Source of the DNA: a virus
Reading direction: 5' to 3' (one strand)
Virus record (IMG/VR): IMGVR_UViG_3300010373_000045
Coordinates: 1-64,000 of that record
Length of the DNA: 64,000 nt
Made by a program: the position numbers and the translations under genes
In this document: in pieces, positions 49,296-62,185 of the stretch
Layout of the letters: the number at the start of each line of letters is the position of its first letter
Position numbering within the stretch: the first letter of the stretch is position 1
Notes under the pieces: generated by a model
Told to the model about the DNA's origin: nothing
Databases searched by the model: none
Seen by the model: only the letters and a program-made list of their open reading frames with translations

Positions 49296-50074
49296 GGATC
49301 CTCATTTCTCTTTTTGGCAGAACCATCGATTTCCAGTATAACAGCCCCAAGGTCCGGCAGCATCCTGTACCTGGAATTCTTCCTCATGTATGACGTTTGT
49401 AATTGCCACGCTGGTAAAATAATGCCGTGCTTTGACGGATGTTCTATATGGACGAAGTAGTGGGCGTGTCCGCGTACAACTACATCGGCTTTCGGTGCTT
49501 GTCCTGTTTTGCCGGCGAGAGCCGACCAAAGAGCTTCACGATCGATAGCCACAGCACGGTAAAGTCCACCGGACACGGAGATGCCATGACTGAAATCCAA
49601 AACACAGCCATCCACATCGAGATCGAGAACTTCTTTGGCATAGGTTCCTACTCCTAAGCCTTCATATGCCGTACTCTTTAATTCTTCGGCAATATTATCG
49701 ACAGAGCGTCCCATTTCATCATCATGATAAAACGTGCCTTTGACGAAGAATATTTTGGAACATTTGGCGGCGCTGAACAGCGTTCGGAAAATAACCTTCG
49801 ATGCATTTTCTTGGTCGCGCATTAACGGCAGGCAGAGCTCGGCGCATCTTGATTTTGGCTGTTTCCCTTCAACAACGTCGCCGACAATAACAATTGCATC
49901 CAGTGGTTTGGCGGTTGCCCATTTCACCATATCGAGAAAGCATTCCCACAGATATGACTGTCCGATATTTTGTTTTACGTGGTGACCGGTGGAAGTTACG
50001 AAATCAGGTGGAAGCATTCCATCAATTGAACCTGGGTGAGTATCGCTCAAGCAGAGAATCCGTCTAGTTGCCAT
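49238..50074 (-). CDS. calcineurin-like metallophosphatase
   Basis: 278 residues. CLSDTH (8-13), VIVGDVVEG, a GTFYHDD replacing the usual GNHD, DFSHG and VVRGHAHYF are the metal-binding motifs in order. GTFYHDD has Thr-Phe-Tyr where most relatives have Asn-His, so activity needs testing. Nuclease or phosphatase; substrate unknown. Confidence 0.75.
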   Translation of the reverse strand: MATRRILCLSDTHPGSIDGMLPPDFVTSTGHHVKQNIGQSYLWECFLDMVKWATAKPLDAIVIVGDVVEGKQPKSRCAELCLPLMRDQENASKVIFRTLFSAAKCSKIFFVKGTFYHDDEMGRSVDNIAEELKSTAYEGLGVGTYAKEVLDLDVDGCVLDFSHGISVSGGLYRAVAIDREALWSALAGKTGQAPKADVVVRGHAHYFVHIEHPSKHGIILPAWQLQTSYMRKNSRYRMLPDLGAVILEIDGSAKKRNEDPCRVIKRLYPLPTHRLTHL

Positions 50075-50086
50075 CGTTCCTCCGTC

Positions 50087-50112
50087 TTCACTTAAGTACT
50101 AAATAAAGTGAA
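50087..50112. promoter_or_regulatory. inverted-repeat operator candidate
   Basis: TTCACTT and AAGTGAA, a perfect 7-base inverted repeat with a 12-base spacer, directly before the start of the minus-strand metallophosphatase/wHTH pair. Size fits a dimeric regulator. Confidence 0.5.
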
Positions 50113-50165
50113 CAAACAAAAGGAATTCTGGTTAAATTAACGCGATTGCAACAAAAAGATAAACG

Positions 50166-50194
50166 TTGACTCTCGGAGTTAATCGGGTTAATTT
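50166..50194 (+). promoter_or_regulatory. sigma70-like promoter
   Basis: TTGACT at 50166-50171, 17-base spacer, TAATTT at 50189-50194, reading into the plus-strand operon that starts at 50280, divergent from the minus gene pair. Confidence 0.5.
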
Positions 50195-50279
50195 GGCATG
50201 GTTCCAAAATAGACCATCGCTCGTCCAACGTGAGGACACTCCTCTCATAAGGGAAAAATGCCGGTTAGATTCCGGCGCG

Positions 50280-50567
50280 ATGGACCATTTCTATATGATT
50301 CCGGAAACACGAGCCGAGCTTGAGAGATTGGGATATAAATTCACCAAGATTGGCGCATGTCCTTGCCAGGATGTTTTGGAATTTTGGCAAACGCCGAACG
50401 GGAGTAAAATCGGCTTAAACCTGGTTTTTTCTTCTCCTCCAGAAGACCGAACTGGTTCTGTCGATCGGTTTGAAGAACATCACAGACGATGCCCTATTCA
50501 ATTGGAACTGGCAAAGGTCAAGCAGAGGCTTTCCGAGAAGACTTCCAAACAAAGGATGCTTTTATGA
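50280..50567 (+). CDS. hypothetical protein
   Basis: 95 residues from ATG 50280 (GTG/TTG starts upstream lack ribosome sites). CPCQDVLEFWQTPNGSKIGL suggests a small beta fold; a basic helical tail follows. ATGA overlap with the next gene. Confidence 0.55.
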   Translation: MDHFYMIPETRAELERLGYKFTKIGACPCQDVLEFWQTPNGSKIGLNLVFSSPPEDRTGSVDRFEEHHRRCPIQLELAKVKQRLSEKTSKQRMLL

Positions 50568-50740
50568 CCTATGAGGAAGCGATGGCATTTCTTGACCGGG
50601 ACGAGAGATTTAAGGCCACCGTTTATGCCATGAACACGTTGCTTATCGACAAGGGTGTATACACTTCGGATGAATTTTCGACTCTATTCACTGAATGGGC
50701 TGTAAAGGAAAAGCATAAGAAACAGCGGGAGAACAATTAA
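50564..50740 (+). CDS. hypothetical protein
   Basis: 58 residues, helical (MTYEEAMAFLDRDERFKATV), overlapping the upstream stop. Unknown. Confidence 0.55.
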   Translation: MTYEEAMAFLDRDERFKATVYAMNTLLIDKGVYTSDEFSTLFTEWAVKEKHKKQRENN

Positions 50741-50770
50741 CATGGAGAATTCCCTAACCGACCTTTTCTG

Positions 50771-50989
50771 ATGGTGTCAGAAAACACGTCTGGATTACTT
50801 CGAAGGATCGATGAATTAGAAAAGCGTTGCAGGGATCAGGAGATGTCTATCCGTTTAATTACCGGTGTTCTTGAACGAACCACCAAGATCTTGGAGCGTA
50901 CTACCGATGCACAATGGATTAAACGCCGAGCAACTCGTCATCTACATAAGGCAACTCCGCCGACGCGTAAGGCAGCTCGAAGGAATTAA
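50771..50989 (+). CDS. small basic helical protein
   Basis: 72 residues; coiled-coil-like first half (LLRRIDELEKRCRDQEMSIR), Arg/Lys-rich second half. No clear Shine-Dalgarno. Confidence 0.5.
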   Translation: MVSENTSGLLRRIDELEKRCRDQEMSIRLITGVLERTTKILERTTDAQWIKRRATRHLHKATPPTRKAARRN

Positions 50990-51080
50990 AAGTCCGGCTA
51001 CGTGGAAACGCCGTGTTGAATTAAAGCGGGCATGTGGTCGACTTCATCACCTGCGTCGCTACGCCTGGAACGCACGATGA
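50909..51080 (+). CDS. small basic protein (start uncertain)
   Basis: 56 residues in another frame over the end of the previous gene. Rich in Arg/Leu (IYIRQLRRRVRQLEGIKSPA). The ATGA overlap with 51077 supports it being real, though overlap with 50771-50989 is long. Confidence 0.4.
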
Positions 51081-51286
51081 TAGAACTAATGACACCATCA
51101 GGTGTCGGGCTTCATGTTGGTCAGAAGTGGAAAGAGGTTGATCCTCGATTTGATCGAATCGTTACTATTAAGGGTTGGGAAGAGTTACGCGGCGAGACAA
51201 TCATCCTGATCCAAGGTAAACGTTTAACTAGAGCCAGACTTGCCAGATTTAACGGCAGGCGCGGCGGCTATGTTTTGGTGGAATGA
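51077..51286 (+). CDS. hypothetical small beta-rich protein
   Basis: 69 residues: GLHVGQKWKEVDPRFDRIVT then IILIQGKRLTRARLARF. Resembles a small SH3-like fold. Coupled to the upstream gene. Confidence 0.6.
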   Translation: MIELMTPSGVGLHVGQKWKEVDPRFDRIVTIKGWEELRGETIILIQGKRLTRARLARFNGRRGGYVLVE

Positions 51287-51305
51287 AGACGCTTAGGAAT
51301 CGCTG

Positions 51306-52019
51306 ATGAAACTGACAAAAGTTACGATCACTGGCGCAGACGACAAGACCGATATTCAACAACTTGTGGATTTATCGTTTCGATTTAGTTTTGTCGAATG
51401 GGGAATACTTGTCTCGAAAGCGAAAACTGGATCGCGCCGTTTTCCGTCCGAGGATTGGATCAATGCATTTACCGTCGAGGCTGCAAAAAATAATTTAAAT
51501 GTTGCCACACATATCTGTGGTCGTTGGACGCGAGAATTAATTGCAGGAACGCTTAAATGGTATGACCTACCAAGTTGTATCGATGTTTGCCAGAGGATCC
51601 AGATTAATACGCATGCCGATGCGCGAACAGCGATCCTGACACGCCCATTGGCAATGGCAGAAAAACTTTTAGAGCGAGAAAAAATATACATTTTTCAGCT
51701 TGATGGTGTGAATAATTCTCTGCCTTTATGTTTTCCGGATCCAAGAATAAAGAAAGCTGGCTTATTCGATCTTTCGGGCGGCGCTGGCGTTCTGCCGAAT
51801 CAATGGCTCTCACCAAACGATGCCTTTCCCTGCGGCTACGCTGGCGGGCTCGGTCCAGAAAACATCCTTGAACAACTCACAAAGATAGATGCCGTCTGTC
51901 CGCCCGATTACGAGACCTGGGTCGATATGGAGCGCCGCGTTCGTACAGATGATGATGAAGAATTGGACCTAGCGCGAGTGACGAGCGTGCTTGAACAGGT
52001 GGCAGGACTGATTCAATGA
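51306..52019 (+). CDS. hypothetical TIM-barrel-like protein
   Basis: 237 residues. DLSFRFSFVEWGILVSKAKT, then ATHICGRWTRELIAG, IFQLDGVNNSL and a GGAGVLPNQWLSPN glycine loop near FPCGYAGGLGPENI resemble phosphoribosylanthranilate-isomerase-type TIM barrels. Enzyme assignment uncertain. ATGA overlap with the deoxyribosyltransferase-like gene hints at nucleotide metabolism. Confidence 0.6.
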   Translation: MKLTKVTITGADDKTDIQQLVDLSFRFSFVEWGILVSKAKTGSRRFPSEDWINAFTVEAAKNNLNVATHICGRWTRELIAGTLKWYDLPSCIDVCQRIQINTHADARTAILTRPLAMAEKLLEREKIYIFQLDGVNNSLPLCFPDPRIKKAGLFDLSGGAGVLPNQWLSPNDAFPCGYAGGLGPENILEQLTKIDAVCPPDYETWVDMERRVRTDDDEELDLARVTSVLEQVAGLIQ

Positions 52020-52510
52020 AGGTAATTACCGCACCGCAATTCTTCTCATATGAAGCCGGATCTTTTTATATCTTTTTGGCTGGAACAATTGATATGGGGG
52101 ACTCCGAGAACTGGCAAGAGAGCGTAATTAACTGGATGTCTGGATGGACCGATAAGGTTGTTTTGTTGAACCCACGACGCCAGGATTGGAATAGTGAATG
52201 GGAGCAGGACGCGAATAAGATGCAATTTCGCGAACAGGTACGGTGGGAATTAGATGCAATGCAATGCGCCGACTTACGCTTTTTCGTTTTTGCTACGGAT
52301 GAGAATAACGCCAGAAAAGCGAAAGCGCCAATCACTCTTTTGGAACTTGGATTACATAAAGATAAGCCAGCAATCGTTTGTTGTCCGCCAGGGTACTACC
52401 GCAAGGGGAACGTAGATATTGTTTGTCATAAATATCGAATTCCAGTTTATGATAGTTTCGGTCAAGCGATGTTTGAATTATCAGTATACGTCTCCAAGAA
52501 ACTACTGTGA
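52016..52510 (+). CDS. nucleoside 2-deoxyribosyltransferase-like protein
   Basis: 164 residues. IFLAGTIDM, WQESVINWM, LLNPRRQDWNSEWEQ, QVRWELDAM and PITLLELGLH..CCPPGYYRKGNVDIV are the full signature of the nucleoside 2-deoxyribosyltransferase-like (Nuc_deoxyri_tr2) family. May move a modified base onto deoxyribose or break down host nucleosides. Confidence 0.8.
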   Translation: MKVITAPQFFSYEAGSFYIFLAGTIDMGDSENWQESVINWMSGWTDKVVLLNPRRQDWNSEWEQDANKMQFREQVRWELDAMQCADLRFFVFATDENNARKAKAPITLLELGLHKDKPAIVCCPPGYYRKGNVDIVCHKYRIPVYDSFGQAMFELSVYVSKKLL

Positions 52511-53184
52511 AGATTCATCTAATCGGCGACTGTCACGCGAAGATATCGCGCCTATTATGGATCCTCGATTCCTTGCCGAAAGATGAACCTGTCTTTCAGC
52601 TTGGAGACATGGGAGTAGGTTTTTCTGGCATATTTCTTCCTAAGCGTGATCCAAACTTCTGGTGGATCCGTGGTAATCATGATTGTCCGGAGAAATGTCG
52701 CGCGCACGAAAACTATCTTGGCGATTACGGATATCTTGAAGACCTGAAATTATTTTATGTTGCTGGCGCGTGGTCTATTGATTACGCGAGTCGCGTCCGC
52801 GGAGTTAGTTGGTGGCCAGATGAAGAATTGGGATATGAACAATTACAAGATGCCATTGACTTGTACAAACAAACCAAACCGGAAATCGTAATCAGCCACG
52901 AATGTCCAACCGAGGTTGGCATCAAGATGCTGGCACCGTTAATGCTGGACGGTTATTTCGGAGCAAAAGCATCCTGCGGCAAATCGCGTACTGCTCGAGC
53001 TCTACAGGTGATGTTTGAAGCCCATCAGCCGCAGCACTGGGTATTTGGACACTACCATATCGACCGTGATATTTATCTTAAGGTTCTTCCAGCGGATGTA
53101 GACCGTTTTGCGGATTGTTCAGAGGGCGAAGGAACACATTTTCGCTGCGTCTCAGAATTAGGAGTCTACACACTGGAGGTTTAA
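52507..53184 (+). CDS. metallophosphatase
   Basis: 225 residues. GDCH (7-10), LGDMG, RGNHDCPE, SHECP and FGHYHIDRD give the complete calcineurin-type metal site, unlike the variant at 49238. Possibly a Ser/Thr or nucleotide phosphatase. Coupled to the deoxyribosyltransferase-like gene. Confidence 0.8.
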   Translation: MKIHLIGDCHAKISRLLWILDSLPKDEPVFQLGDMGVGFSGIFLPKRDPNFWWIRGNHDCPEKCRAHENYLGDYGYLEDLKLFYVAGAWSIDYASRVRGVSWWPDEELGYEQLQDAIDLYKQTKPEIVISHECPTEVGIKMLAPLMLDGYFGAKASCGKSRTARALQVMFEAHQPQHWVFGHYHIDRDIYLKVLPADVDRFADCSEGEGTHFRCVSELGVYTLEV

Positions 53185-53364
53185 GTGCAAGCTAAAGAAA
53201 TTACCTTCGTTGAGATAGCCGGCCGACAGATCGCAGCCGTACTCATTATCTGTCCGAAATGTAAAACGCTCGACTTAAATACCACCTTTAATACGAATGT
53301 TGATCCGTGGACCGCTCATTGCCCGCTGGGGCACGAATGGACCATTCCCAATGATTCCAACTGA
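53185..53364 (+). CDS. zinc-ribbon protein
   Basis: 59 residues from GTG, GGAGG 6 bases upstream. ICPKCKTLDL and HCPLGHEW (CxxC plus C..H) make a zinc ribbon. Its KCPKCKT phrase recurs in the interrupted gene at 53785. Confidence 0.65.
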   Translation: MQAKEITFVEIAGRQIAAVLIICPKCKTLDLNTTFNTNVDPWTAHCPLGHEWTIPNDSN

Positions 53365-53920
53365 TGAGCAGCTCTGGGAAAAATTACGCACAATCAAGCC
53401 GCCGTATCCTGTCGCATTCAAGTTTAAAAGCGGAAAGAAAATCACTCTCTGTCCGCCAGGTAATGCCGAGGGAATTGATATTCAATCGGAGGTTGTGCGC
53501 CCTAAAATATTACACTTCCGGCTTTATCAGGGTGTAGGCGCGCACCATGAAGAAATTAGAATTAAGTCCGGTGTAATGCTCTGGTGGCAGGAAGCATACG
53601 TCTATCGACTGGAAATGAATTGCGCGATTACGCGAGCCATCGAATCATTAGATAGACTCTTTGCTCCTGTTCCGCGCAAGCCTGGACATCCAAAGAACGA
53701 CAACACTCCATGGCCGGAAGACTTTGGACAAGATATTGAGAAGATGACCAACCAAATTATGATTGAAGCGATCGAGGGGTGGATATGCGAGACGGAAAAA
53801 TTCCTAAGTGTCCGAAGTGTAAAACGATTACGTGAATACACTGGTCCGGCAACGGTATTTGCAAATGCTGTTGCTGCGGACACCGAGAACCAATGTGGGT
53901 TTTCTATCGACACGGAATAA
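53351..53920 (+). CDS. hypothetical protein
   Basis: 189 residues from ATG 53351, overlapping the zinc ribbon by 14 bases. Helical second half (ITRAIESLDRLFA, MTNQIMIEAIEGWICETEKF). The last 135 bases overlap a zinc-ribbon frame, so its natural end is in doubt. Confidence 0.55.
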   Translation: MIPTDEQLWEKLRTIKPPYPVAFKFKSGKKITLCPPGNAEGIDIQSEVVRPKILHFRLYQGVGAHHEEIRIKSGVMLWWQEAYVYRLEMNCAITRAIESLDRLFAPVPRKPGHPKNDNTPWPEDFGQDIEKMTNQIMIEAIEGWICETEKFLSVRSVKRLREYTGPATVFANAVAADTENQCGFSIDTE

Positions 53921-53979
53921 CATATTCTTCGTTAGGAATAAGCTCGATACACACGAAGATTCCTGGAGAAACTGAATGA
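53785..53979 (+). pseudogene. zinc-ribbon gene interrupted by in-frame TGA
   Basis: From ATG 53785 the frame reads MRDGKIPKCPKCKTIT, TGA (53833-53835), then IHWSGNGICKCCCCGHREPM and on to a stop that overlaps the next start by 4 bases (ATGA at 53976). Both halves together make one zinc ribbon (CPKC plus CKCCCCGH), so it is either mutated or read through. Confidence 0.55.
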
Positions 53980-54227
53980 GTTGGATTAAGGTATCCGACA
54001 AACTGCCGTTAACGCCAAACAGTTGCCCGATAGCAAGCAGACGTTCGGACGTATTTTTATATTCCGACAATGTTTTGTTATTTGAAAAGAGTAGTCATCG
54101 TAACGGAGAAGATATAACTATCGGTTGCGTGAATGTATATCCTAATGGTGGTGAGACGACATGGACCGACATTCACGGGCAAGAAATCCATCCGACCCAT
54201 TGGCAACCGCTACCGGAGAAACCGTGA
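53976..54227 (+). CDS. DUF551-like protein
   Basis: 83 residues: WIKVSDKLPLT near the start and THWQPLPEKP at the end are the DUF551 signature ('WIxVxxxLP...TxxxxxTHWxPLPxxP'). Beta-rich; function unknown. GGAG 10 bases upstream. Confidence 0.75.
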   Translation: MSWIKVSDKLPLTPNSCPIASRRSDVFLYSDNVLLFEKSSHRNGEDITIGCVNVYPNGGETTWTDIHGQEIHPTHWQPLPEKP

Positions 54228-54526
54228 GTCAAGAAGAAAAGTTAAGACAGGCGCTCCGAGAAATAGCAAATCGCGCTGGTGCTCCAACGATGGGTTATTC
54301 GCCGCCAAATGAACTACGAGAACAACGCGAATCTCTGGATTGGATTGCTGCCCGCGCAGCGGAAGCGTTGGGTGTAACACCTGTTCAACCGGAACATCAT
54401 CGCCTATCGATTGATTTTAACGCTGTTAACAAATGTTCTTTTTGTTCGGAACGATACGGTTTCTGTGAAAAGCATCAAGATATGTACGGTATCGATTACA
54501 AGGGTGATCCGCAGAGGAAATCGTAA
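54224..54526 (+). CDS. hypothetical protein
   Basis: 100 residues from GTG, overlapping DUF551-like stop. Helical N-terminus; C-terminal CSFCSERYGFCEKH is a Cys/His knuckle. Confidence 0.6.
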   Translation: MSQEEKLRQALREIANRAGAPTMGYSPPNELREQRESLDWIAARAAEALGVTPVQPEHHRLSIDFNAVNKCSFCSERYGFCEKHQDMYGIDYKGDPQRKS

Positions 54527-54528
54527 TT

Positions 54529-54855
54529 ATGAAATATACAATTACAGAATCAAAAACGCACCCAGGTCATTATTGGGTCGATGAAGATCAGAAGATCAGT
54601 CGAGCTTTGTTTGTCGGTCCTACGGCCGAGCAAGAAGCGCAGGAGTACGCGCGCTGGAAAAATGCCCATGTGGAAGCGGAAATTGCCACGGCAAACTTCG
54701 AAGCGCGCCGTCGCGCTCGTTTTGATCCTGACAAATTAACGCAAGAGCAATGGGAAAAGATTGGCAAAGGTGTTTGTCCACTTTGCGACAGTAAGATTGG
54801 CTATTGCGAAGCCGGAGAATTTTGCACAAACGATGCGTGTCCTTATGTTCTTTAG
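54529..54855 (+). CDS. zinc-ribbon protein
   Basis: 108 residues, 2 bases after the previous stop. CPLCDSKIGYCEAGEFCTND then CPYVL at the C-terminus. Helical middle. Last gene before the tRNA cluster. Confidence 0.6.
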   Translation: MKYTITESKTHPGHYWVDEDQKISRALFVGPTAEQEAQEYARWKNAHVEAEIATANFEARRRARFDPDKLTQEQWEKIGKGVCPLCDSKIGYCEAGEFCTNDACPYVL

Positions 54856-54947
54856 GATTCAAATGGATAACCTGATTCGTGAATGGTGGAGGCGTCATGG
54901 CGTTGTTGCTATGGTTCCTTGCGGATTCTCGCTTAATTAAATTTTTC

Positions 54948-54975
54948 TTGACAAGGCTTTGTTCCGTGATACATT
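54948..54975 (+). promoter_or_regulatory. sigma70-like promoter of the tRNA cluster
   Basis: Perfect TTGACA at 54948-54953, 16-base spacer, TACATT at 54970-54975. Expected transcript begins near 54982, upstream of the PTH2-like ORF and the tRNAs. Confidence 0.7.
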
Positions 54976-55032
54976 CGCGGCATGACATTTACCTAGATTT
55001 CTCAAGAACCTTACGTTTATACCTTCATTCGG

Positions 55033-55533
55033 ATGGATCTTCCCATCCAGCATCAAATCATCCAATCCAATCATGCAGTAGAACAGGCGACTATGCGCTT
55101 CACGCATAAGCCTTATACAGTCCAACAGAATGAGTGTTGGAACAACCACGTTCTGATTGGTGTGCCCGATCTGGCCGCACTTAAACGTGTTGCCGGCAAA
55201 CTCGCCGTATCTCAGATTCAACATTATTGCTGGTTTGAACCAGACTTTCCCGAAGCAGAAAGATTTACAGCCATTTGTACGGCGCCGATTAGCGGAGTTG
55301 CGCGATCGGTGCTCTCAAATTATCGAGTTTACAAAGATACGCCCGTAACTCAACTACGAGAGTGCTCTGATCTAAACAGAGAAGTTGTCGGTGAGAATCC
55401 GACCGGGCGTGCCAGTTTATGTGCGCGTGGTCCAGCGGCTGGACAGGTCAACTCTAAATTGATCGAGGTAGGTTCGACTCCTACCGCGCACACCAATGCC
55501 GGCGGTGCGGAAGCTAGCGCCGCGCTCTCTTGA
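55033..55533 (+). CDS. PTH2-like protein, open frame running into tRNA genes
   Basis: Residues 1-101 resemble a compact PTH2-like (peptidyl-tRNA hydrolase 2) fold of phage type: IQHQIIQSNHAVEQAT, VLIGVPDLAALKRVAGKLA, HYCWFEPDFPEAERFTAICT, then GVARSVLSNYRVYK. No stop follows: codons continue through the tRNAs at 55339 and 55421 to TGA at 55531. The natural product probably ends near 55335, before the first tRNA. The codons at 55120-55143 coincide with hairpin repeat R8. PTH activity is not proven. Confidence 0.55.
   Translation: MDLPIQHQIIQSNHAVEQATMRFTHKPYTVQQNECWNNHVLIGVPDLAALKRVAGKLAVSQIQHYCWFEPDFPEAERFTAICTAPISGVARSVLSNYRVYKDTPVTQLRECSDLNREVVGENPTGRASLCARGPAAGQVNSKLIEVGSTPTAHTNAGGAEASAALS
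55120..55143 (+). repeat. hairpin repeat copy R8
   Basis: GTCCAAC, AGAATGA, GTGTTGGAAC, within the PTH2-like frame. It fits the R1 consensus but overlaps coding sequence, so it may be coincidental. Confidence 0.45.
55339..55414 (+). tRNA. tRNA with CTA anticodon (amber), type I
   Basis: 76 nt: acceptor ACGCCCG/CGGGCGT, D-stem ACTC/GAGT, anticodon stem CTCTG/CAGAG with loop ATCTAAA (T33, anticodon CTA, A37), T-stem GTCGG/CCGAC with loop TGAGAAT, G73, encoded CCA. It would read UAG. Amino acid identity not shown. Confidence 0.85.
55421..55495 (+). tRNA. tRNA with CTA anticodon (amber), 6-bp anticodon stem
   Basis: 75 nt: acceptor GTGCGCG/CGCGCAC, D-stem GTCC/GGAC, anticodon stem GGTCAA/TTGATC (6 bp), loop CTCTAAA, 3-base variable region, T-stem GTAGG/CCTAC with canonical TTCGACT, A73, CCA. 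The long anticodon stem and short variable loop also occur in pyrrolysine tRNA, but the D-loop GG and T-loop are canonical, and no pylS is seen. Confidence 0.85.
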
Positions 55534-55550
55534 ATGGGACGCCGGCACCA
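55498..55550 (+). ncRNA. miniature tRNA-like RNA 1
   Basis: 53 nt: acceptor stem GCCGGCG (55498-55504)/CGCCGGC (55540-55546), hairpin GTGCGG/CCGCGC with a 9-base loop, T-arm-like TCTC-TTGAAT-GGGA, discriminator A, encoded CCA (55548-55550). No D-arm plus anticodon-arm pair and no 7-base anticodon loop. Confidence 0.75.
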
Positions 55551-55551
55551 T

Positions 55552-55597
55552 AGGGGCTCGCGTGAAAGCGCGTGGATCAAATCCGAAGCCCCTGCCA
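55552..55597 (+). ncRNA. miniature tRNA-like RNA 2
   Basis: 46 nt: acceptor AGGGGCT/AGCCCCT, hairpin CGCG-TGAAAG-CGCG, T-arm-like TGG-ATC-AAAT-CCG (loop ATCAAAT), discriminator G, encoded CCA (55595-55597). One base after mini-RNA 1. Confidence 0.75.
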
Positions 55598-55598
55598 C

Positions 55599-55643
55599 GC
55601 GGGGTGCGTCGAAAGACGTGGTTCAAAGCCACACCCCGCTCCA
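55599..55643 (+). ncRNA. miniature tRNA-like RNA 3
   Basis: 45 nt: acceptor GCGGGGT/ACCCCGC, hairpin CGTC-GAAA-GACG, T-arm GTGG/CCAC with a true T-loop TTCAAAG, discriminator T, encoded CCA (55641-55643). The T-arm is the most tRNA-like of the three. One base after mini-RNA 2. Confidence 0.8.
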
Positions 55644-55681
55644 ATTTCTTTAGGAACAAAAATTGTTCCTAAGAGAACAAG

Positions 55682-55781
55682 GCGTCTGTAGCTTAACCGG
55701 GTGAAAGCATCGGTCTCTAAAACCGACAGAGCAGCCAGTTCTAACTGGTTGATGCGAGTTCAAATCTCGCCAGACGCTCCA
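55682..55781 (+). tRNA. tRNA with CTA anticodon (amber), class II
   Basis: 100 nt: acceptor GCGTCTG/CAGACGC, D-stem GCTT/AAGC, anticodon stem TCGGT/ACCGA with loop CTCTAAA, a 27-base variable region containing hairpin CCAGTT-CT-AACTGG, T-stem GCGAG/CTCGC with TTCAAAT, T73, CCA. A long variable arm is expected for Leu, Ser or Tyr identity. Confidence 0.85.
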
Positions 55782-55791
55782 AAATTCCTGC

Positions 55792-55797
55792 TATAAT
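55792..55797 (+). promoter_or_regulatory. extended -10 promoter of ssb
   Basis: TGC-TATAAT, 8 bases before ATG of ssb; TSS expected near 55804 so the message would be leaderless. No good -35. CCG-TATAAT at 56884-56889 precedes the ATG at 56906 in a similar way, and TACAAT at 58130-58135 precedes the portal ATG by 9 bases. Confidence 0.55.
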
Positions 55798-55804
55798 CCC
55801 GAGC

Positions 55805-56230
55805 ATGCTAAACAAAGTTTTTCTTATCGGCCGTCTCGGTAAAGATCCCGAGACTCGTTACACTTCTGGCGGCTCAGCCGTTTGTAATTTCTCAATCGCC
55901 ACAGACGAAACATTTAAAGATCGCTCAGGGCAAAAGCAGAAACACATCGAGTGGCACAAGATCATTGCCTGGAGTAAGTTGGCAGAAATTTGTCAGCAAT
56001 ACTTAAAGAAGGGTTCGCTTGTTTACGTCGAAGGTAAAATTCAATCTCGCCAATGGGAAGACAAGCGCAGCGGAGAAAAGCGCACGGCATTTGAGATTGT
56101 AGCTTCAACCATGAAGATGCTTGGCGATAAGCCGGAACGGACCGCGGCGCCGGCGCAAGATCATTACGATGCCGATCCAGTAGGCGGTGGAGGCGGATCT
56201 GAGATTTCTGACGAAGACATTCCTTTTTAG
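55805..56230 (+). CDS. ssb: single-stranded DNA-binding protein
   Basis: 141 residues. OB-fold start MLNKVFLIGRLGKDPETRYT, then WHKIIAWSKLAEICQQYLKKG and YVEGKIQSRQWEDKRSGEK. Gly-rich linker and acidic tip ending DEDIPF, which docks replication proteins. No ribosome site; possibly leaderless. Confidence 0.92.
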   Translation: MLNKVFLIGRLGKDPETRYTSGGSAVCNFSIATDETFKDRSGQKQKHIEWHKIIAWSKLAEICQQYLKKGSLVYVEGKIQSRQWEDKRSGEKRTAFEIVASTMKMLGDKPERTAAPAQDHYDADPVGGGGGSEISDEDIPF

Positions 56231-56259
56231 TTTGACATCTGTGATATCCTCTAGCCTCA

Positions 56260-56335
56260 GGGTCAGTAAGCTTAGCGGCGAAACTGCTCGCCTCCAAACC
56301 GAGACTCGGTGGTTCGAATCCATCCTGACCCGCCA
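56260..56335 (+). tRNA. tRNA-Trp(CCA)
   Basis: 76 nt: acceptor GGGTCAG/CTGACCC, D-arm 17 nt with one C-A mismatch, anticodon loop CTCCAAA with stem CTCGC/CCGAG containing one C-C mismatch, T-stem GGTGG/CCATC with TTCGAAT, G73, CCA. Layout is canonical; the two mismatches may be repaired by modification or mark decay. Confidence 0.7.
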
Positions 56336-56345
56336 TATTGACCTT

Positions 56346-56476
56346 CGTGATCAGCCGTGTATGGCGTCTGATCACGGAACCGAGGCAGTCGATGCGGGCT
56401 TAGTCTCCTGTGTATCGGCTGCCTCCGGGAATAGATCTAAACAGAGGGGGCGGCGGTAAAGAGGATGTACGCCGCC
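56346..56476 (+). other. hairpin chain between tRNA-Trp and acb2-like gene
   Basis: Three successive stems: CGTGATCAG/CTGATCACG (56346-56376), GAGGCAG/CTGCCTC (56382-56425) and GGCGGCG/CGCCGCC (56449-56476). No gene between. May be a processed RNA or control of the next gene. Confidence 0.5.
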
Positions 56477-56500
56477 TCGTTTACTTTGAAAGGAATTGTG

Positions 56501-56716
56501 ATGATAACTGAAGTCAATATCGACAACTGGTTTACCTACCACGCACCGACGCCAGACCAACTTCCTAAGTTCGAGGCGATCCGCGAGGCTGGTAAACATT
56601 TGGCTGCGGTTATTGTCGCGAATACTCTTCCAAGCGCCGATCAAACCGCAGCCGTTCGAAAGGTACGTGAAGCTTGCATGACGGCAAATGCCAGCATCGC
56701 GTGCGGCGGTAATTGA
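56501..56716 (+). CDS. Acb2-like cyclic-nucleotide sponge (anti-CBASS)
   Basis: 71 residues, AAAGGA 8 bases before ATG. NWFTYHAPTPDQLPKFEAIR, then AVIVANTLPSADQTAAVRKV and REACMTANASIACGG are the signature of Acb2/Tad1-type hairpin proteins that bind cyclic di- and trinucleotides and block CBASS and Thoeris signalling. Family call from recalled consensus. Confidence 0.75.
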   Translation: MITEVNIDNWFTYHAPTPDQLPKFEAIREAGKHLAAVIVANTLPSADQTAAVRKVREACMTANASIACGGN

Positions 56717-56718
56717 TC

Positions 56719-56792
56719 GGGTCCGTAAGTCAACAGTAGACTACCTGACTTTTAATCAGGGGACGCAGGGGCAGCACCTGCCGGGCCTACCA
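56719..56792 (+). tRNA. tRNA-Lys(TTT) with unusual T-loop
   Basis: 74 nt: acceptor GGGTCCG/CGGGCCT (with G-T at 1-72), D-stem AGTC/GACT, anticodon stem CCTGA/TCAGG with loop CTTTTAA (anticodon TTT), T-stem GCAGG/CCTGC whose 7-base loop is GGCAGCA instead of TTCRANN, A73, CCA. Confidence 0.75.
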
Positions 56793-56793
56793 T

Positions 56794-56869
56794 GCGGGCG
56801 TAGCTCAGTGGCTAAAGCATCTGACTCTTAATCAGAGGATCGTGAGTTCGACTCTCACCGCCCGCACCA
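56794..56869 (+). tRNA. tRNA-Lys(CTT)
   Basis: 76 nt: acceptor GCGGGCG/CGCCCGC, anticodon stem TCTGA/TCAGA with loop CTCTTAA, T-stem GTGAG/CTCAC with TTCGACT, A73, CCA. One base after tRNA-Lys(TTT). Confidence 0.9.
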
Positions 56870-56905
56870 TTTCCTTCTTTCCGTATAATTTGATATGCCA
56901 TATCC

Positions 56906-57379
56906 ATGGCATACGTTCGCATTGTCCGTGATGATTCAATAACCTCCCAAGCAATCCGTTGGACCTTACACGAGCAGTTCTCTCATATCGGTTTCAAGAT
57001 GGATGATGAGCGCTGGCTTGACTGCCGGCTCGATGGCGGCGTTCAGATCCGAGCGGCAAACAGCATAATCGATACCGCACACATCGACTTTACGTTTCCC
57101 GGGATCGAGTCAGCCATTGAATATGGCAAAACGCTTATTGGAACAAAGTATGATGTTGGAAACATATTTCACTTCCTCGATTCTCATTGGCCTATTAATC
57201 AGCATCAATTAATTTGCAGTAGATTCGTTCGTGAATGTGCTCGCGAGGGTGCGAAATTTGCTTTAATTAATCCTTCGATTGAAGACTACCAGATTGCTCC
57301 CGGCCACTATATTTATCCCATTGGCGTGGTTCCAGGTGTAAACGAACTTGATCGCTATCCAATGGATATGAAGTTGTAG
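56906..57379 (+). CDS. NlpC/P60-like (YiiX-type) cysteine peptidase
   Basis: 157 residues. FSHIGFKMDDERWLDCRLDG carries the His, GTKYDVGNIF and HQLICSRFVRECAREGAKFA the nucleophilic Cys: the permuted YiiX/YebB-like NlpC/P60 fold. May cut peptidoglycan or lipid bonds, at entry or lysis. A TATAAT box lies 17 bases upstream. Confidence 0.65.
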   Translation: MAYVRIVRDDSITSQAIRWTLHEQFSHIGFKMDDERWLDCRLDGGVQIRAANSIIDTAHIDFTFPGIESAIEYGKTLIGTKYDVGNIFHFLDSHWPINQHQLICSRFVRECAREGAKFALINPSIEDYQIAPGHYIYPIGVVPGVNELDRYPMDMKL

Positions 57380-57414
57380 TAGAATTCATTCGCCAACTGA
57401 TAGAAGCCTTTTGT

Positions 57415-57505
57415 TTAGCGTTCCACGTGATCAAAAGGTGAAACCATAAAAGCAGAGCTGCCACTAGCAGCCTAAACCTTTGGGGCGGATTTTGGTCCGC
57501 CCCGG
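57415..57505 (+). other. structured leader before 57512 gene
   Basis: GTTTAG/CTAAAC closes a roughly 60-base region containing GCTGC-CACTA-GCAGC; a second stem GGGGCGG/CCGCCCC (57483-57504) sits just before the ribosome site GGAG. This could be a terminator/anti-terminator or riboswitch-like leader; no known class recognised. Confidence 0.45.
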
Positions 57506-57511
57506 AGTTCT

Positions 57512-57802
57512 ATGTTTGAAGTTAAAACTGAAATAATTTCAAAGTTAACCAAAGAGTGGGACTCAATAGTTTGTTCTGCCTGCGGATCCGTAAAATGGGA
57601 GAAGTATCCCTTCTGTCGATCGTGTAGTATTCGCCTCCAGCGTATTAACCTGATGCTTCCGTTAAAGCCTTTCCGCGGCCACTACGGGAAAGAAATAGCC
57701 GATCATCCTTATGCTTGCCAGAAATGGGCTCGAGCCTATGATCGAGCCAGAGATTATCTTTTGGCAAGCAAAGTGGTATTATCACATTCAGAGGATGATT
57801 AA
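57512..57802 (+). CDS. zinc-binding protein of the head module
   Basis: 96 residues. VCSACGSVKWEKYPFCRSC is a zinc ribbon (residues 21-39), followed by LYS/ARG helix. Precedes a second Cys protein and the portal. Confidence 0.6.
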   Translation: MFEVKTEIISKLTKEWDSIVCSACGSVKWEKYPFCRSCSIRLQRINLMLPLKPFRGHYGKEIADHPYACQKWARAYDRARDYLLASKVVLSHSEDD

Positions 57803-57805
57803 CTA

Positions 57806-58099
57806 ATGCTGTTTCACTGGTTTGACGAGTTTCTTCGTTTCATTATTTGGTTGTTTCGCAGACCGACCAAAAACGAGCTCGCACGCATCGATCCTAATGC
57901 GAAATGCCCTGCCTGTGGGGCTAAAAGTGGAACATTAAAATGTGTTCGTGTTACAAATCAACCAACGCCAGACGATGGCCAGCTTGATATAAAGATGTTT
58001 AGTGTTAAGGTCCAGCATACCTGTAATGTCGATGGTGCAATCTGGTATGAGGATCCGATTGTGAAGGTTAATATCAATCAAGTTTTGCCATCCAGATAA
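57806..58099 (+). CDS. zinc-ribbon protein upstream of portal
   Basis: 97 residues. Amphipathic N-terminus, CPACGAKSGTLKC (residues 34-46) and HTCNVDGAIWYEDPIVKVN. The same type precedes portals in related large phages (recalled). Probably a minor head or assembly protein. Confidence 0.6.
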   Translation: MLFHWFDEFLRFIIWLFRRPTKNELARIDPNAKCPACGAKSGTLKCVRVTNQPTPDDGQLDIKMFSVKVQHTCNVDGAIWYEDPIVKVNINQVLPSR

Positions 58100-58144
58100 T
58101 CTTTCCTATCATCCTCCCCCTTTTTGCCTTACAATCCGCGCGAA

Positions 58145-59767
58145 ATGGCAAATCGTAACGGTATTACTATAAAACCGATTGGTCAATTTGTTGACGCTCT
58201 CACGCGTTACGGTCAATCGCTTTACCAACGTCCACCCAACGAAATTCGCAATATCGATACAAAAGATTGGTACTCACCGATGCAGCCGGTCAACCCAATG
58301 GGACCGGCTGGTTCCGAGCCTAAGGGATTCCAGTTTTGGGCCGGTGAAAACCTTATTTGGACGCCGCGCGCCGACGCTGAATACTCAGCGGCCGACCTAA
58401 AGGCAATGGCTACCTATCCGCTTGCAAAGATTTGTATCGAAAATGTCAAAGATGCGATTGAACGTTGCGCTTGGGAAATTCAACTCCGTGCGCGCCCTGG
58501 TGAGCGCAGAAAGGATACGTTGGCGCGTGGAAAAGATGACGATACACTTTTGAAGCTCAATCGTTTCTTTGAATATCCTGATCGTGAGCACAACTGGCAA
58601 GAATGGTTGCGCCCATTACTGGATGATTTGCTTGTCATCGATGCTCCTTCAGTATTGGTACGCAAAACATTTAGCGGAGAAATTGCAGAACTTGCCGTCA
58701 TCCGCGGTGAAATGATCACGCGGTATATTGATGAAAACGGTTTTACTCCAATACCGCCGAGTCCTGCTTATGCCCAAAACTGGTGGGGCATGCCGTATTT
58801 AAACTTGACAACGGACCAGTTGATCTACAAACCGCGTAACATTGTGCCGCGAAACTCGGTTTCCTCCCAGCTTTATGGTATGAGTCCGACCGAGCAGCTT
58901 GCTCCGGAAATTAAAGTTGGCATGAAGCGTCTTGAATTTGCTTTGGCATATTACACGGAAGGTTCCGTACCGGGTGTGGTACAGGTAGTTCCAAGAGGAA
59001 CACCAGTTGCGAAGATCAATGAAGCAATGGATTGGATGAATTCGGAACTTGCTGGCAACCTCGCTGCTCGTAATCAGTGGCGCTTGGTGCAAGGATTTAA
59101 TGAACCAGGTAAAAATGATCAGATCGTATTCTCCAAAGAGCCGCTACTCGCCGGTCTTTACGACGAAAAACATATTCGTGAAATTTGTTTCGGTTACGGC
59201 ACGAGTCCGCAGCGTCTTATTAAGATGATCCGCACAGAAGGGAAAGCATCGAGTGAATCTGCCGAGTCAGAAGGAACGCTGCCATACATTCTTTGGCTTA
59301 AGGGATTTATCGACTTTATTATTCAGAAGAAAATGGGTCTGACCGAATATGAATTCGCCGTGGATCCATATAGCGAGCCGGATCCGCTTAAGAATGCTGC
59401 CGCTATCACGATGTTGGTAAGCAAGGGAACATTAACACCAAATGAAGCACGTGAACGTTTAGGTGAAGATTTGCGACCGGAACCGGAAGCAGATCAACTC
59501 GGCATTATCACTGGAACCGGATTTGTTCCACTCGGCATGGCACCAGCATTGGGAGGTGTTGACGTCGATGAAGATGGAAAAGCGACATTAAACGAAAATG
59601 CAAATGTTCCACCGAACCGACCGCCAGGAAGCAGTAATCCTGGAGGCAAGAACAGCCGCGGTTCTCGTCCCTCGCAGGCTGCCGGCGGTGGGCGATCGAT
59701 AGGAAGGCATGTGCCCAATGGAAAAATATTCAAACGAGTTAGCAAAAAAACGGGGCTCGCGTATTGA
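58145..59767 (+). CDS. portal protein
   Basis: 540 residues from ATG 58145 (TTG at 58124 adds 7). ATYPLAKICIENVKDAIERC, YGMSPTEQLAPEIKVGMKRL, YTEGSVPGVVQV, the fold-defining KEPLLAGLYDEKHIREICFG and LTPNEARERLGEDL match HK97-type portals. Disordered Gly/Asn/Pro tail. Dodecameric ring for DNA passage. Confidence 0.85.
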   Translation: MANRNGITIKPIGQFVDALTRYGQSLYQRPPNEIRNIDTKDWYSPMQPVNPMGPAGSEPKGFQFWAGENLIWTPRADAEYSAADLKAMATYPLAKICIENVKDAIERCAWEIQLRARPGERRKDTLARGKDDDTLLKLNRFFEYPDREHNWQEWLRPLLDDLLVIDAPSVLVRKTFSGEIAELAVIRGEMITRYIDENGFTPIPPSPAYAQNWWGMPYLNLTTDQLIYKPRNIVPRNSVSSQLYGMSPTEQLAPEIKVGMKRLEFALAYYTEGSVPGVVQVVPRGTPVAKINEAMDWMNSELAGNLAARNQWRLVQGFNEPGKNDQIVFSKEPLLAGLYDEKHIREICFGYGTSPQRLIKMIRTEGKASSESAESEGTLPYILWLKGFIDFIIQKKMGLTEYEFAVDPYSEPDPLKNAAAITMLVSKGTLTPNEARERLGEDLRPEPEADQLGIITGTGFVPLGMAPALGGVDVDEDGKATLNENANVPPNRPPGSSNPGGKNSRGSRPSQAAGGGRSIGRHVPNGKIFKRVSKKTGLAY

Positions 59768-61307
59768 TCCGGCTAAATTAACGCCGGAGTCCCATCAGGC
59801 AATCTTTCATATTAAAGATGCCATACATAAAGTTTTCAAGCGTCAACAGGATCGGGCGCAGCTCGAAGTCGACCGTTTGGTTAAAACTATGAGTGACACA
59901 CTAAAAAAACGTGAATATCATTCAGTTCAATTTAATTTATCTCCGGAAGATGCTAAGAATGTTCTTGAGGTTCCGATTCTCGATACAGACTTTACATTAA
60001 AGGGACGAGAAAAAGAACCGCACGTCACCGTGCTATTTGGTTTACAAAAAGAAATAACTCCGGAAGATGTGAATAAGATTACAAAGAATACTGGGGAAAT
60101 AGAGGCAACGCTTCTCGGCTATGACACATTCCCAGAGGGTCCAGATGGCATACCGCTAATCATACCAGTAGACAGTGATGCACTCCATGCGCTCCACCGC
60201 AATTTAGCAGAACTAGATCATATAAGCACACATAAAGAATATCGTCCGCACATTACGGTTGGATATCTCAAGCCAGGAACGGAAGCGCAATATCTAAAAC
60301 TTGTTAATCCGCTCGAGGGCGATAGGATTATCTTGAAGAACCTTGTTTTTTCTCATTTAGATAAATCTCAAACGGAATTGGAAAAGTATAGTAAGGGTAC
60401 ATCGGAAGAAAAGTTAGCCATGCCGGAATTGCCGCCAAACCATCACGCTGCAATGCGAGTTCCTAAGGGCGGTTCCTGTTGCGCGAATTGTGAATATCTT
60501 GGTGATGACAAAAAAAGCTGTAGAAATGATTATTTTATTAAATGGGATGGAGGGAAAGAGAAACCGGCAGATTCAGATCGGCTTCCATATCCGGCCGATG
60601 AATATTGCAGTGATTGGTACGAGCCGGAGAATGAGCTTTTAGAGGCTGCTTATCGTATCGGCGCCGCTCCACTTCAAAAAGCGATTTCTGGAGAAGGAAG
60701 TCGCAAGACGATTTTTATGATGCGTCATGGTAAAACGGCGTTGGATCCAATTAAACGCTCTGATGGCTGGTTGGATTTCCCACTTTCAGACGACGGACGC
60801 GTAAAATTATTGACAGCGGAACAATATCTAAAAGAAACGCCGATCACTAAAATATATTGCAGTGACTTGAAGCGCCACCGCGAAACGGCAGAAATTATTC
60901 AAAGTGGATCTATCTATAATCCGCAGATTGTCATCGACAATAGAGCTAAGACGTGGAACCTTGGCATACTTGCTGGACAACAGAAATATGCCAATAAGAA
61001 GAAAGTTCGTTTGTTAATGGATAATCCAAATCAAGTGCCAGAGGGAGGAGAATCACGTAACTCATTCCGGAAACGATTCCTCTCGCTTATAGGTGAGATT
61101 CAGCAGAAGGCAAAGGCAGGCCGTGGTCCGTTCCTAATCGTTCTTTCCGGATCAAATCTTCGTGAGCTCTCTGATCATATATATAACGACGTGGATGTTC
61201 TTGATTTGGATGAAGGTGGAATGCTGTCCATGCAGCCTTCCGGGGATAAGTGGAATGCCCAGGTCCTATTTGGTCACAAAAGTCTGGAAGACGAGAAATT
61301 ATCCTAA
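59709..61307 (+). CDS. fusion of 2H phosphoesterase, Cys-rich and histidine-phosphatase domains
   Basis: 532 residues. Domain 1 (about 75-225): HVTVLFGL and HITVGYL, the two HxTx motifs of 2H (LigT-type) phosphoesterases. Domain 2 (about 230-310): CCANCEYLGDDKKSCRNDYF and CSDWY, four Cys like a small Fe-S or zinc fold. Domain 3 (about 335-510): MMRHGKT, CSDLKRHRETAEI and a final His region of histidine phosphatases. Overlaps the portal by 59 bases, so made with head proteins. The 2H domain recalls anti-CBASS Acb1 but may be unrelated. Confidence 0.75.
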   Translation: MCPMEKYSNELAKKRGSRIDPAKLTPESHQAIFHIKDAIHKVFKRQQDRAQLEVDRLVKTMSDTLKKREYHSVQFNLSPEDAKNVLEVPILDTDFTLKGREKEPHVTVLFGLQKEITPEDVNKITKNTGEIEATLLGYDTFPEGPDGIPLIIPVDSDALHALHRNLAELDHISTHKEYRPHITVGYLKPGTEAQYLKLVNPLEGDRIILKNLVFSHLDKSQTELEKYSKGTSEEKLAMPELPPNHHAAMRVPKGGSCCANCEYLGDDKKSCRNDYFIKWDGGKEKPADSDRLPYPADEYCSDWYEPENELLEAAYRIGAAPLQKAISGEGSRKTIFMMRHGKTALDPIKRSDGWLDFPLSDDGRVKLLTAEQYLKETPITKIYCSDLKRHRETAEIIQSGSIYNPQIVIDNRAKTWNLGILAGQQKYANKKKVRLLMDNPNQVPEGGESRNSFRKRFLSLIGEIQQKAKAGRGPFLIVLSGSNLRELSDHIYNDVDVLDLDEGGMLSMQPSGDKWNAQVLFGHKSLEDEKLS

Positions 61308-62185
61308 TGCCTTACGCGGACGACGGACACGATGTACCGAAGTATGTTACGGGCGGCGCCAAGCGCCGGCGTCAGTGGAGTCACGTATGGAACAGCGCGT
61401 ATCACCGCGCAAAAAAGCAGGGAAAATCCGACAAGGAAGCAGAAGAATTCGCATTTCGCGAAGCCAATGGAGTAGCCGGACCCAATAAAACCTCATATGA
61501 CGTTTTAACGAAGCGTATTTCCGATGCAGAAGCCACGGAGATCGCCGATAAAATTCTCAAAGCGATGGAACAGGAATGGAACTCTCTCCCGTCGGAAGTA
61601 CAAGAGCAACTTGTTAATGCCTCTCTTTCTGGTGTTGGTCAAGGCATGTTGCAGATCGAATACGCGCCCAGCGGAATTATTGCCGCCGCAAATGAGATTG
61701 CACACGACTATGCTGTGAAGCGTGCCGCCGAAATGGTCGGAATGAAATACAACAAGAGCGGCGATCTTGTGAAGAATCCAGATGCGCGATGGGCAATTAG
61801 CGATACAACCAGAGAAAAAATCCACGACATTGTAGCGGAGTCATTCCAAAAAGAACTTAGGATGGAAGAGATTAAGGCTCATATTCAGAAAGCACTTCAT
61901 GATCAAACGAAGCAGGGTATCTTTAGTGAGGCGCGCGCTGAAATGATTGCGCGAACCGAGGTAATTAACGCACAAACGCACGGCAATTTTGATATGTGGA
62001 AGAAGTCGGGGATCGTTAAAACCGTTCGTTGGTTGACAGCGGAAGACGAAAGAACCTGTCCAGAATGCGAACAAAATAGCGATGCGGTTGTTGAACTTGG
62101 CAAGCCATTTCCAAGTGGTGCGATTATGCCCACCGAGCATCCCAATTGCCGGTGTGCCTTGACAGTAGAGGATGTTTCGGATTAA
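61307..62185 (+). CDS. SPP1 gp7/MuF-like head morphogenesis protein with ChaB-like start
   Basis: 292 residues from ATG 61307, overlapping the upstream stop. Residues 20-57 (WSHVWNSAYHRAKKQGKSDK) resemble ChaB. MIARTEVINAQTHGNF, VRWLTAEDERTCPEC and EHPNCRCAL are the MuF hallmarks. Follows the portal module as in SPP1. Confidence 0.8.
   Translation: MPYADDGHDVPKYVTGGAKRRRQWSHVWNSAYHRAKKQGKSDKEAEEFAFREANGVAGPNKTSYDVLTKRISDAEATEIADKILKAMEQEWNSLPSEVQEQLVNASLSGVGQGMLQIEYAPSGIIAAANEIAHDYAVKRAAEMVGMKYNKSGDLVKNPDARWAISDTTREKIHDIVAESFQKELRMEEIKAHIQKALHDQTKQGIFSEARAEMIARTEVINAQTHGNFDMWKKSGIVKTVRWLTAEDERTCPECEQNSDAVVELGKPFPSGAIMPTEHPNCRCALTVEDVSD

Follow-up and report, generated by a model that had tools for sequence, protein, structure and literature searches.

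The stretch of DNA analysed here (the window, 64,000 nt) is part of a 69,790-base virus record and belongs to a soil phage whose genome carries about 40 tRNAs. Between tRNAs with a CUA anticodon lie three short tRNA-like elements, units 1 to 3 (Table 1), the first of them 2 nt (AT) downstream of a CUA tRNA and the other two following after single bases (T, then C). An earlier sequence-only reading of this DNA had placed a tandem array of miniature tRNA-like RNAs here, and re-reading the sequence confirmed the positions of the units, their lengths of 53, 46 and 45 nt, the 1-base spacing and the CUA tRNAs on either side.

As for the surroundings, promoter-like sites such as the one upstream of the cluster turn up in shuffled sequence at least as often as they do here. 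The A+T-rich perfect hairpin after unit 3 (55651-55673) has a counterpart between tRNA genes elsewhere in this phage (locus L037, minus strand, about 8080-8041). An ORF at 55033-55533 crosses two CUA tRNAs and ends within unit 1, and its 3' part is probably non-coding. The three CUA tRNAs differ from one another and occur in a phage in which some ordinary ORFs still end at TAG; wholesale amber recoding was rejected, since across seven pieces, some of which overlap, TAG terminates 29 of the 172 ORFs that reach 100 aa.

Table 1. Features of the tRNA/unit cluster in the window, and the tandem units of phage G009
Feature	Position	Strand	Details
Promoter-like site	54948-54975	+	TTGACA, 16 nt, TACATT (10/12); upstream of the tRNA/unit cluster
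tRNA, anticodon CUA, missed by ARAGORN	55339-55414	+	Rfam RF00005, 48.7 bits over 55339-55411; fold, CCA
tRNA, anticodon CUA, 2 nt 5' of unit 1	55421-55495	+	ARAGORN, Rfam, fold
Unit 1, 53-nt tRNA-like element	55498-55550	+	Acceptor GCCGGCG/CGCCGGC; 6-bp hairpin; ACCA
Unit 2, 46-nt tRNA-like element	55552-55597	+	Acceptor AGGGGCT/AGCCCCT; 5-bp hairpin, GAAA loop; GCCA
Unit 3, 45-nt tRNA-like element	55599-55643	+	Acceptor GCGGGGT/ACCCCGC; 4-bp hairpin, GAAA loop; TCCA
10-bp A+T-rich hairpin, gap between unit 3 and tRNA	55651-55673	.	Sequence, fold
100-nt tRNA, anticodon CUA, long variable arm	55682-55781	+	ARAGORN, Rfam, fold
G009 tandem unit, first	L416 9509-9455	-	Same length and plan as the second, homologous
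G009 tandem unit, second	L416 9452-9398	-	Same length and plan as the first, homologous

Architecture and specificity of the three units

Each unit is predicted to fold into a compact three-way junction composed of the acceptor stem, a hairpin of 4-6 bp and a T-arm-like hairpin, followed by NCCA. In agreement with the earlier description of perfect 7-bp acceptors, one small hairpin and a single base before an encoded CCA, all seven acceptor pairs are Watson-Crick in every fold and the NCCA end is encoded, as in canonical tRNAs (RF00005). The anticodon arm of that family is absent, a single small hairpin standing in its place, and no remnants of D, anticodon or variable-loop parts are visible by eye beside the perfect acceptors. 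A T-arm-like hairpin had been assigned to every unit; all three hairpins are present, but a canonical T-loop (7 nt, TTCRANN) is found only in unit 3 (TTCAAAG, with a G-C closing pair). In units 1 and 2 the arm is imperfect and weaker, with 4 bp including one G-U and a 6-nt loop (TTGAAT) in unit 1, and 3 bp including one U-G below the loop ATCAAAT in unit 2. The minimum-energy folds of units 2 and 3 draw two additional pairs within the 7-nt T-like loop. When a 367-nt precursor (55415-55781) was folded, the lowest acceptor pair probability was 0.76 for unit 1, 0.86 for unit 2 and 0.99 for unit 3. Single-sequence fold z-scores were -1.69, -2.47 and -3.92, respectively, and unit 1 taken alone has an unremarkable fold energy. 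ARAGORN and Rfam call the flanking tRNAs and none of the three units. At E up to 10, Rfam gives no match to tRNA, tmRNA or mascRNA/menRNA (RF01684) there; the sole match is to part of an RNase P model, at 13.9 bits and well under that model's cut-off.

The specificity of this architecture was gauged with a strict scanner, which was designed after the units had been seen and favours them over looser cousins. On both strands of the 64-kb window it found exactly units 1-3, whereas ten Markov-resampled 64-kb sequences that keep its dinucleotide frequencies gave 3 hits between them, or 0.3 per 64 kb. Among 251 viral loci (2.23 Mb), fetched mostly by tRNA patterns, there were 14 hits, only 3 of them adjoining a tRNA, and these 3 are units 1-3 again, in a near-identical record; 119 bacterial/archaeal loci (0.84 Mb) gave 7 hits, one adjoining a tRNA (L362), with a hairpin that resembles a D arm. 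The strict architecture beside a tRNA is thus confined to this phage among the 251 viral loci. With three units in 146 nt set against the hit rate in resampled sequence, every unit ending in NCCA and lying between tRNAs, chance folding of intergenic sequence is exceedingly improbable, the modest z-score of unit 1 notwithstanding. The units are almost certainly real tRNA-derived or tRNA-like elements, and the name of miniature tRNA-like RNAs is well backed by anatomy, context and control scans.

Units 1-3 are also present in the near-identical record, IMGVR_UViG_3300010396_000003 (152,425 bases), which shows 99.98-99.995% identity over two compared pieces (99.98% over 12.4 kb). Their presence there makes a local assembly error less likely and is not independent conservation. 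That record has 35 tRNA matches above the Rfam cut-off, with 34 ARAGORN tRNAs in one 20-kb piece, and the window contributes 7 further tRNAs (Rfam). The phage tRNAs look bacterial, judging by a tRNA-Tyr with a long variable arm and by the encoded CCA; in the phage collection, Methanosarcina virus MetMV has the closest TerL (45% identity over 70% of the protein). TerL and SSB searches of viral contigs brought up a single near-identical genome, every other match being distant or partial. INPHARED gave no nucleotide match to 50000-62000 and only weak matches to the units (E of at least 2 among the matches listed), while a search with the unit 2/unit 3 junction hit 6 contigs, falling between tRNA-like units in the near-identical phage only. 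None of these searches found a divergent relative of units 1-3, which is why compensatory change is not seen for them.

Scans of part of the proteome (30 phage proteins with Pfam and 10 with PHROGs) revealed no tRNA enzyme or known counter-toxin, a 2H-phosphoesterase domain aside. A 532-aa protein (window 59709-61307) carries 2H phosphoesterase and histidine phosphatase domains (Pfam) and shows a weak match to the anti-CBASS protein Acb1, slightly below the cut-off. Outside the window, the same phage has a candidate fourth short unit without CCA (L037, minus strand, 6492-6450), located between two tRNA-Gly genes and consisting of an 8-bp stem, a small hairpin and a T-like loop, then TTTT. This candidate is suggestive only, since the looser scan also yields chance hits.

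Short tRNA-like units in other genomes

We scanned viral contigs for a second T-arm plus CCA lying too near a preceding tRNA to belong to a full tRNA, and added one family scan, which together gave at least 245 loci. Among the matches listed, the first set contains 117 distinct second units, 7 with seven Watson-Crick acceptor pairs and 7 more with one G-U, where 0.2 and 0.7 would be expected by chance (hand estimate). Some of these second units are D-armless tRNAs still able to decode, such as the Cys tRNA of L094, and in others (L054, L063, L152, L092, L118, L145 and L143) no anticodon arm is apparent. We rejected the idea that short tRNA-likes are phage-specific in general, because bacterial genomes give about equal yield: of the 93 viral and 121 bacterial/archaeal matches listed for the tandem pattern, 10 in each group have a 7-bp acceptor, one of the bacterial/archaeal ten containing Ns. 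Several bacterial/archaeal units (L295, L296, L322 and L333) resemble by eye plain internal deletions of ordinary tRNAs, which indicates that truncated tRNAs arise widely. The window stands apart by its flush hairpins, the lack of visible tRNA leftovers and the tandem of three.

Covariation indicative of selection is seen in phage G009 (IMGVR_UViG_3300014208_000025, 279,228 bases), in which a CUA tRNA is followed, 29 nt further downstream, by two 55-nt units 2 nt apart. In this pair, 33 of 34 cells are paired and 8 of the 17 pairs are altered on both sides, a number reached in 0 of 500 shuffles; sliding the strands abolishes pairing. Within the acceptor, pairs 1, 2, 3 and 5 are constant and pairs 4, 6 and 7 covary, in two sequences only. 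Family A (60-62 nt, CGGGAG...CTCCCG-CCCA) stands behind Val, Thr or Phe tRNAs in five contigs with three distinct sequences. Four of its pairs are altered on both sides, an equally high count occurring in 13 of 500 shuffles, and its two inner hairpins are paired in only 77.8% of cells. Family B (49-51 nt) has tRNA-Arg(CCU) on its 5' side and RNase P RNA-like sequence on its 3' side in two phages that are about 76% identical there; the L086 copy has one acceptor mismatch, at pair 7, and the RNase P-like neighbour in L230, which falls under the Rfam family cut-off, has a homologue in L086. Acceptor pairing in analogous units of other phages is maintained by compensatory changes.

Among the matches listed, CUA tRNAs represent 10 of 2213 ARAGORN tRNAs in 245 viral loci. 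Short units accompany CUA tRNAs in the window and in G009, and an association beyond these two was rejected. A dedicated scan, with a pattern that would miss both the window and G009, gave 22 contigs, and in none of them did another CUA tRNA precede a unit having both a 7-bp acceptor and a CCA end. One promising group turned out on inspection to be an insertion-bearing tRNA. A covariance model (R1) built from the G009 pair was also set aside: besides both seeds and several short units (L092, L230 and L145) it recovered mostly 3' halves of ordinary tRNAs, and it did not detect the window units, for which no workable common alignment with the other families was obtained.

Other unusual RNAs were seen in these arrays. 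Beyond the tandem units of G009 (L416, minus strand, 9393-8951) lie three tRNA-like stretches (about 187, 155 and 97 nt) that have terminal stems, CCA and large insertions, and a phage tRNA array in L145 contains a class A RNase P RNA (1887-2183, 173.9 bits). Inspection by eye also picked out apparently D-armless decoding phage tRNAs (Cys and Ala on the minus strand of L094, His at L189 2348+ and Met in L130). Finally, ARAGORN missed a set of 77-83-nt tRNA-like genes (L048 5488+, L064 10778+, L066 5955+, L071 5064+, L073 2997+, L131 5765+ and 6868+, L133 14212+ and L177 10419+), with Arg anticodons throughout (ACG, TCT, CCT and TCG). By eye, these seem to be rearranged tRNA-Arg genes, in which the anticodon arm comes right after the acceptor and a D-loop-like GTAAxTGGA lies 3'.

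Acceptor ends and possible roles

The acceptor ends were typed by comparing pairs 1-3 and base 73 with those of 1314 phage tRNAs, a procedure that was correct for 706 of the 1314 in a leave-one-out trial. The end of unit 3 is of Gly type (shared with 53 of the 1314, 47 of them Gly) and that of unit 2 of Trp type (14 of 1314, 10 Trp), while that of unit 1 is of Thr/Leu/Phe type (89 of 1314, including 34 Thr, 27 Leu and 13 Phe). The first 7 bases of unit 1 are identical to those of the phage's own tRNA-Ile. Pair 3-70 is C-G in unit 1 and G-C in units 2 and 3; G3-U70 does not occur. Elsewhere, three tRNA-likes of 55-62 nt (L092 2686+, L118 10164+ and L145 2611+) carry G1-C72, G2-C71, G3-U70 and A73, a combination present in 39 of the 1314 tRNAs, Ala in every case.

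Acceptor ends are what several published enzymes read. The anti-phage toxSAS FaRel2 is described as choosing tRNA-Gly and tRNA-Thr via G1-C72, C2-G71, G4-C69 and purine5-pyrimidine68, and as efficiently modifying a minihelix that mimics tRNA-Gly1 (PMC11559606). All four pairs are complete in units 1 and 3, as in 94 of 1325 phage tRNAs, and unit 2 has G4-C69 and G5-C68 only. Units 1 and 3 may be candidate FaRel2-type substrates, a match that was found after the fact. AtaT is reported to prefer Gly- and Trp-tRNA and to read G-C pairs situated in the acceptor stem's lower half (PMC7595197). Cas12a3, by the account of its study, cuts the CCA tail, contacts the T-arm and acceptor stem, and tolerates stepwise loop loss (PMC12851939); CCA ends are likewise given as targets of MenT toxins (PMC11541572). 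No known toxin of the phage's host is in evidence.

We tentatively propose that units 1-3 serve as acceptor-end decoys. They would be transcribed within the tRNA operon, excised by tRNA-processing enzymes as the neighbouring tRNAs are, and build up as CCA-ended molecules; their production as discrete RNAs is probable. The units retain the half of a tRNA that serves RNase P and acceptor-reading proteins, a capping hairpin replacing the D and anticodon arms. They could thereby offer acceptor ends of the Gly, Trp and Thr types to host defence enzymes whose action is to modify or cleave the 3' ends of tRNAs (FaRel2-type toxSAS, AtaT-type acetyltransferases and Cas12a3-type nucleases being candidate targets) and, as decoys or sacrificial substrates, spare the real tRNAs. 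Such a role is proposed because the units cannot decode. Among the three uses suggested by the sequence-only reading (decoys, processing signals or substrates for CCA-binding enzymes), we favour decoys since published anti-phage systems act on precisely the retained part, i.e., the CCA end, acceptor stem and T-arm. The proposal is favoured by an architecture far above chance that is also predicted within the precursor, by the NCCA ends and 1-2-nt spacing among tRNAs, by the tandem pair of G009 with its 8 compensatory pairs, and by the persistence of families A and B in several contigs. Against it, a catalytic toxin is hard to titrate with a decoy, unit 2 has two of the four FaRel2 pairs, the T-arms of units 1 and 2 are imperfect, units 1-3 have no divergent relative, and truncated tRNAs with intact acceptors are about equally frequent in the bacterial and viral matches listed.

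The 1-2-nt spacers would also suit processing punctuation, i.e., minimal RNase P or 3'-end substrates that separate tRNAs and set their ends, the excised piece being idle. An acceptor stem plus T-arm is indeed the minimal RNase P substrate, and family B sits between a tRNA and RNase P RNA-like sequence in two phages. However, array tRNAs also abut directly without units (L086, 0-nt spacers), most spacers in this phage's own tRNA array lack a unit, and three consecutive units, every one having an acceptor end and CCA of its own, exceed what punctuation needs. We consider this explanation unlikely.

Degenerate tRNAs, functionless remnants left by internal deletions, are an equally improbable source. 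The comparable bacterial and viral yields of 7-bp acceptors among the matches listed, several of the bacterial ones deletion-like, point that way, as do acceptor types resembling real isotypes and the seven bases that unit 1 shares with tRNA-Ile. On the other hand, the units form a tandem of three with perfect acceptors, flush hairpins (two of them GAAA-looped) and no visible leftovers; the strict scanner found nothing similar in the 251 other viral loci, and comparable units of other phages show compensatory change.

Slightly less probable still is that the units are aminoacyl acceptors, charged minihelices through which an amino acid is supplied or sequestered outside decoding (e.g., for a tRNA-dependent transferase) or EF-Tu is loaded. 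Minihelices can be charged by Ala and Gly synthetases, which fits the Gly-type end of unit 3 and the Ala-only combination in the short units of L092, L118 and L145; the Trp-type end counts in the same direction. Good charging by Trp and Thr synthetases requires the anticodon, however, and no tRNA-dependent transferase or synthetase was found in the 30 Pfam-scanned proteins of a phage that has more.

If the decoy proposal is extended beyond this locus, phages with large tRNA arrays may, more speculatively, encode an unannotated class of anticodon-free, CCA-ended acceptor/T-arm mini-tRNAs, sometimes in tandem near CUA tRNAs, whose stems would be matched to isotypes attacked by anti-phage enzymes (Gly, Thr and Trp here; Ala elsewhere) as an RNA-based counter-defence. 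Should units 1-3 be produced, and charged or modified, during infection, they would open a direct way to study phage survival under defences aimed at the tRNA acceptor end. Synthesis of such short units is feasible and assays for toxins, synthetases and RNase P are established, so the idea is quickly testable.

Relation to known tRNA-like RNAs

The units have an acceptor stem, a T-like arm, an encoded CCA and a place in a tRNA operon in common with canonical phage tRNAs (RF00005), from which they differ in lacking the D and anticodon arms. Synthetic tRNA minihelices are close in plan, the FaRel2 study describing acceptor, T-arm and CCA as sufficient for acceptor-reading enzymes (PMC11559606). 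Unlike these constructs, the units are genomic, arranged in tandem and capped by a hairpin.

The tRNA-like domain of tmRNA also joins an acceptor to a T-arm without an anticodon arm; in contrast to it, the units are only 45-53 nt long, have no mRNA part and no G3-U70, and give no tmRNA match. Like the units, mascRNA/menRNA is a small CCA-ended tRNA-like RNA, but it is a product of an animal nuclear long RNA, and a search with its covariance model (RF01684), run at E up to 10, leaves the units unmatched. Armless mitochondrial tRNAs are similarly shortened and missing arms, but they retain the anticodon arm and decode. The stable RNAs C and D of phage T4 are, like the units, small non-tRNA RNAs in a phage tRNA cluster, but they are longer.

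As an RNA architecture, then, the units are a variant of known tRNA-like RNAs. The earlier claim that no phage RNA of this kind has been described holds within Rfam scans and the open-licence literature, where no anticodon-free tRNA-like RNA is described in phage tRNA arrays. RNAs of this kind are easily overlooked in phage genomes because tRNA finders seek an anticodon arm. As a type of phage gene, anticodon-free tRNA-like genes have no precedent to our knowledge, and units 1-3 would be the first that we know of, provided that infected cells make them and that they are charged or modified there.
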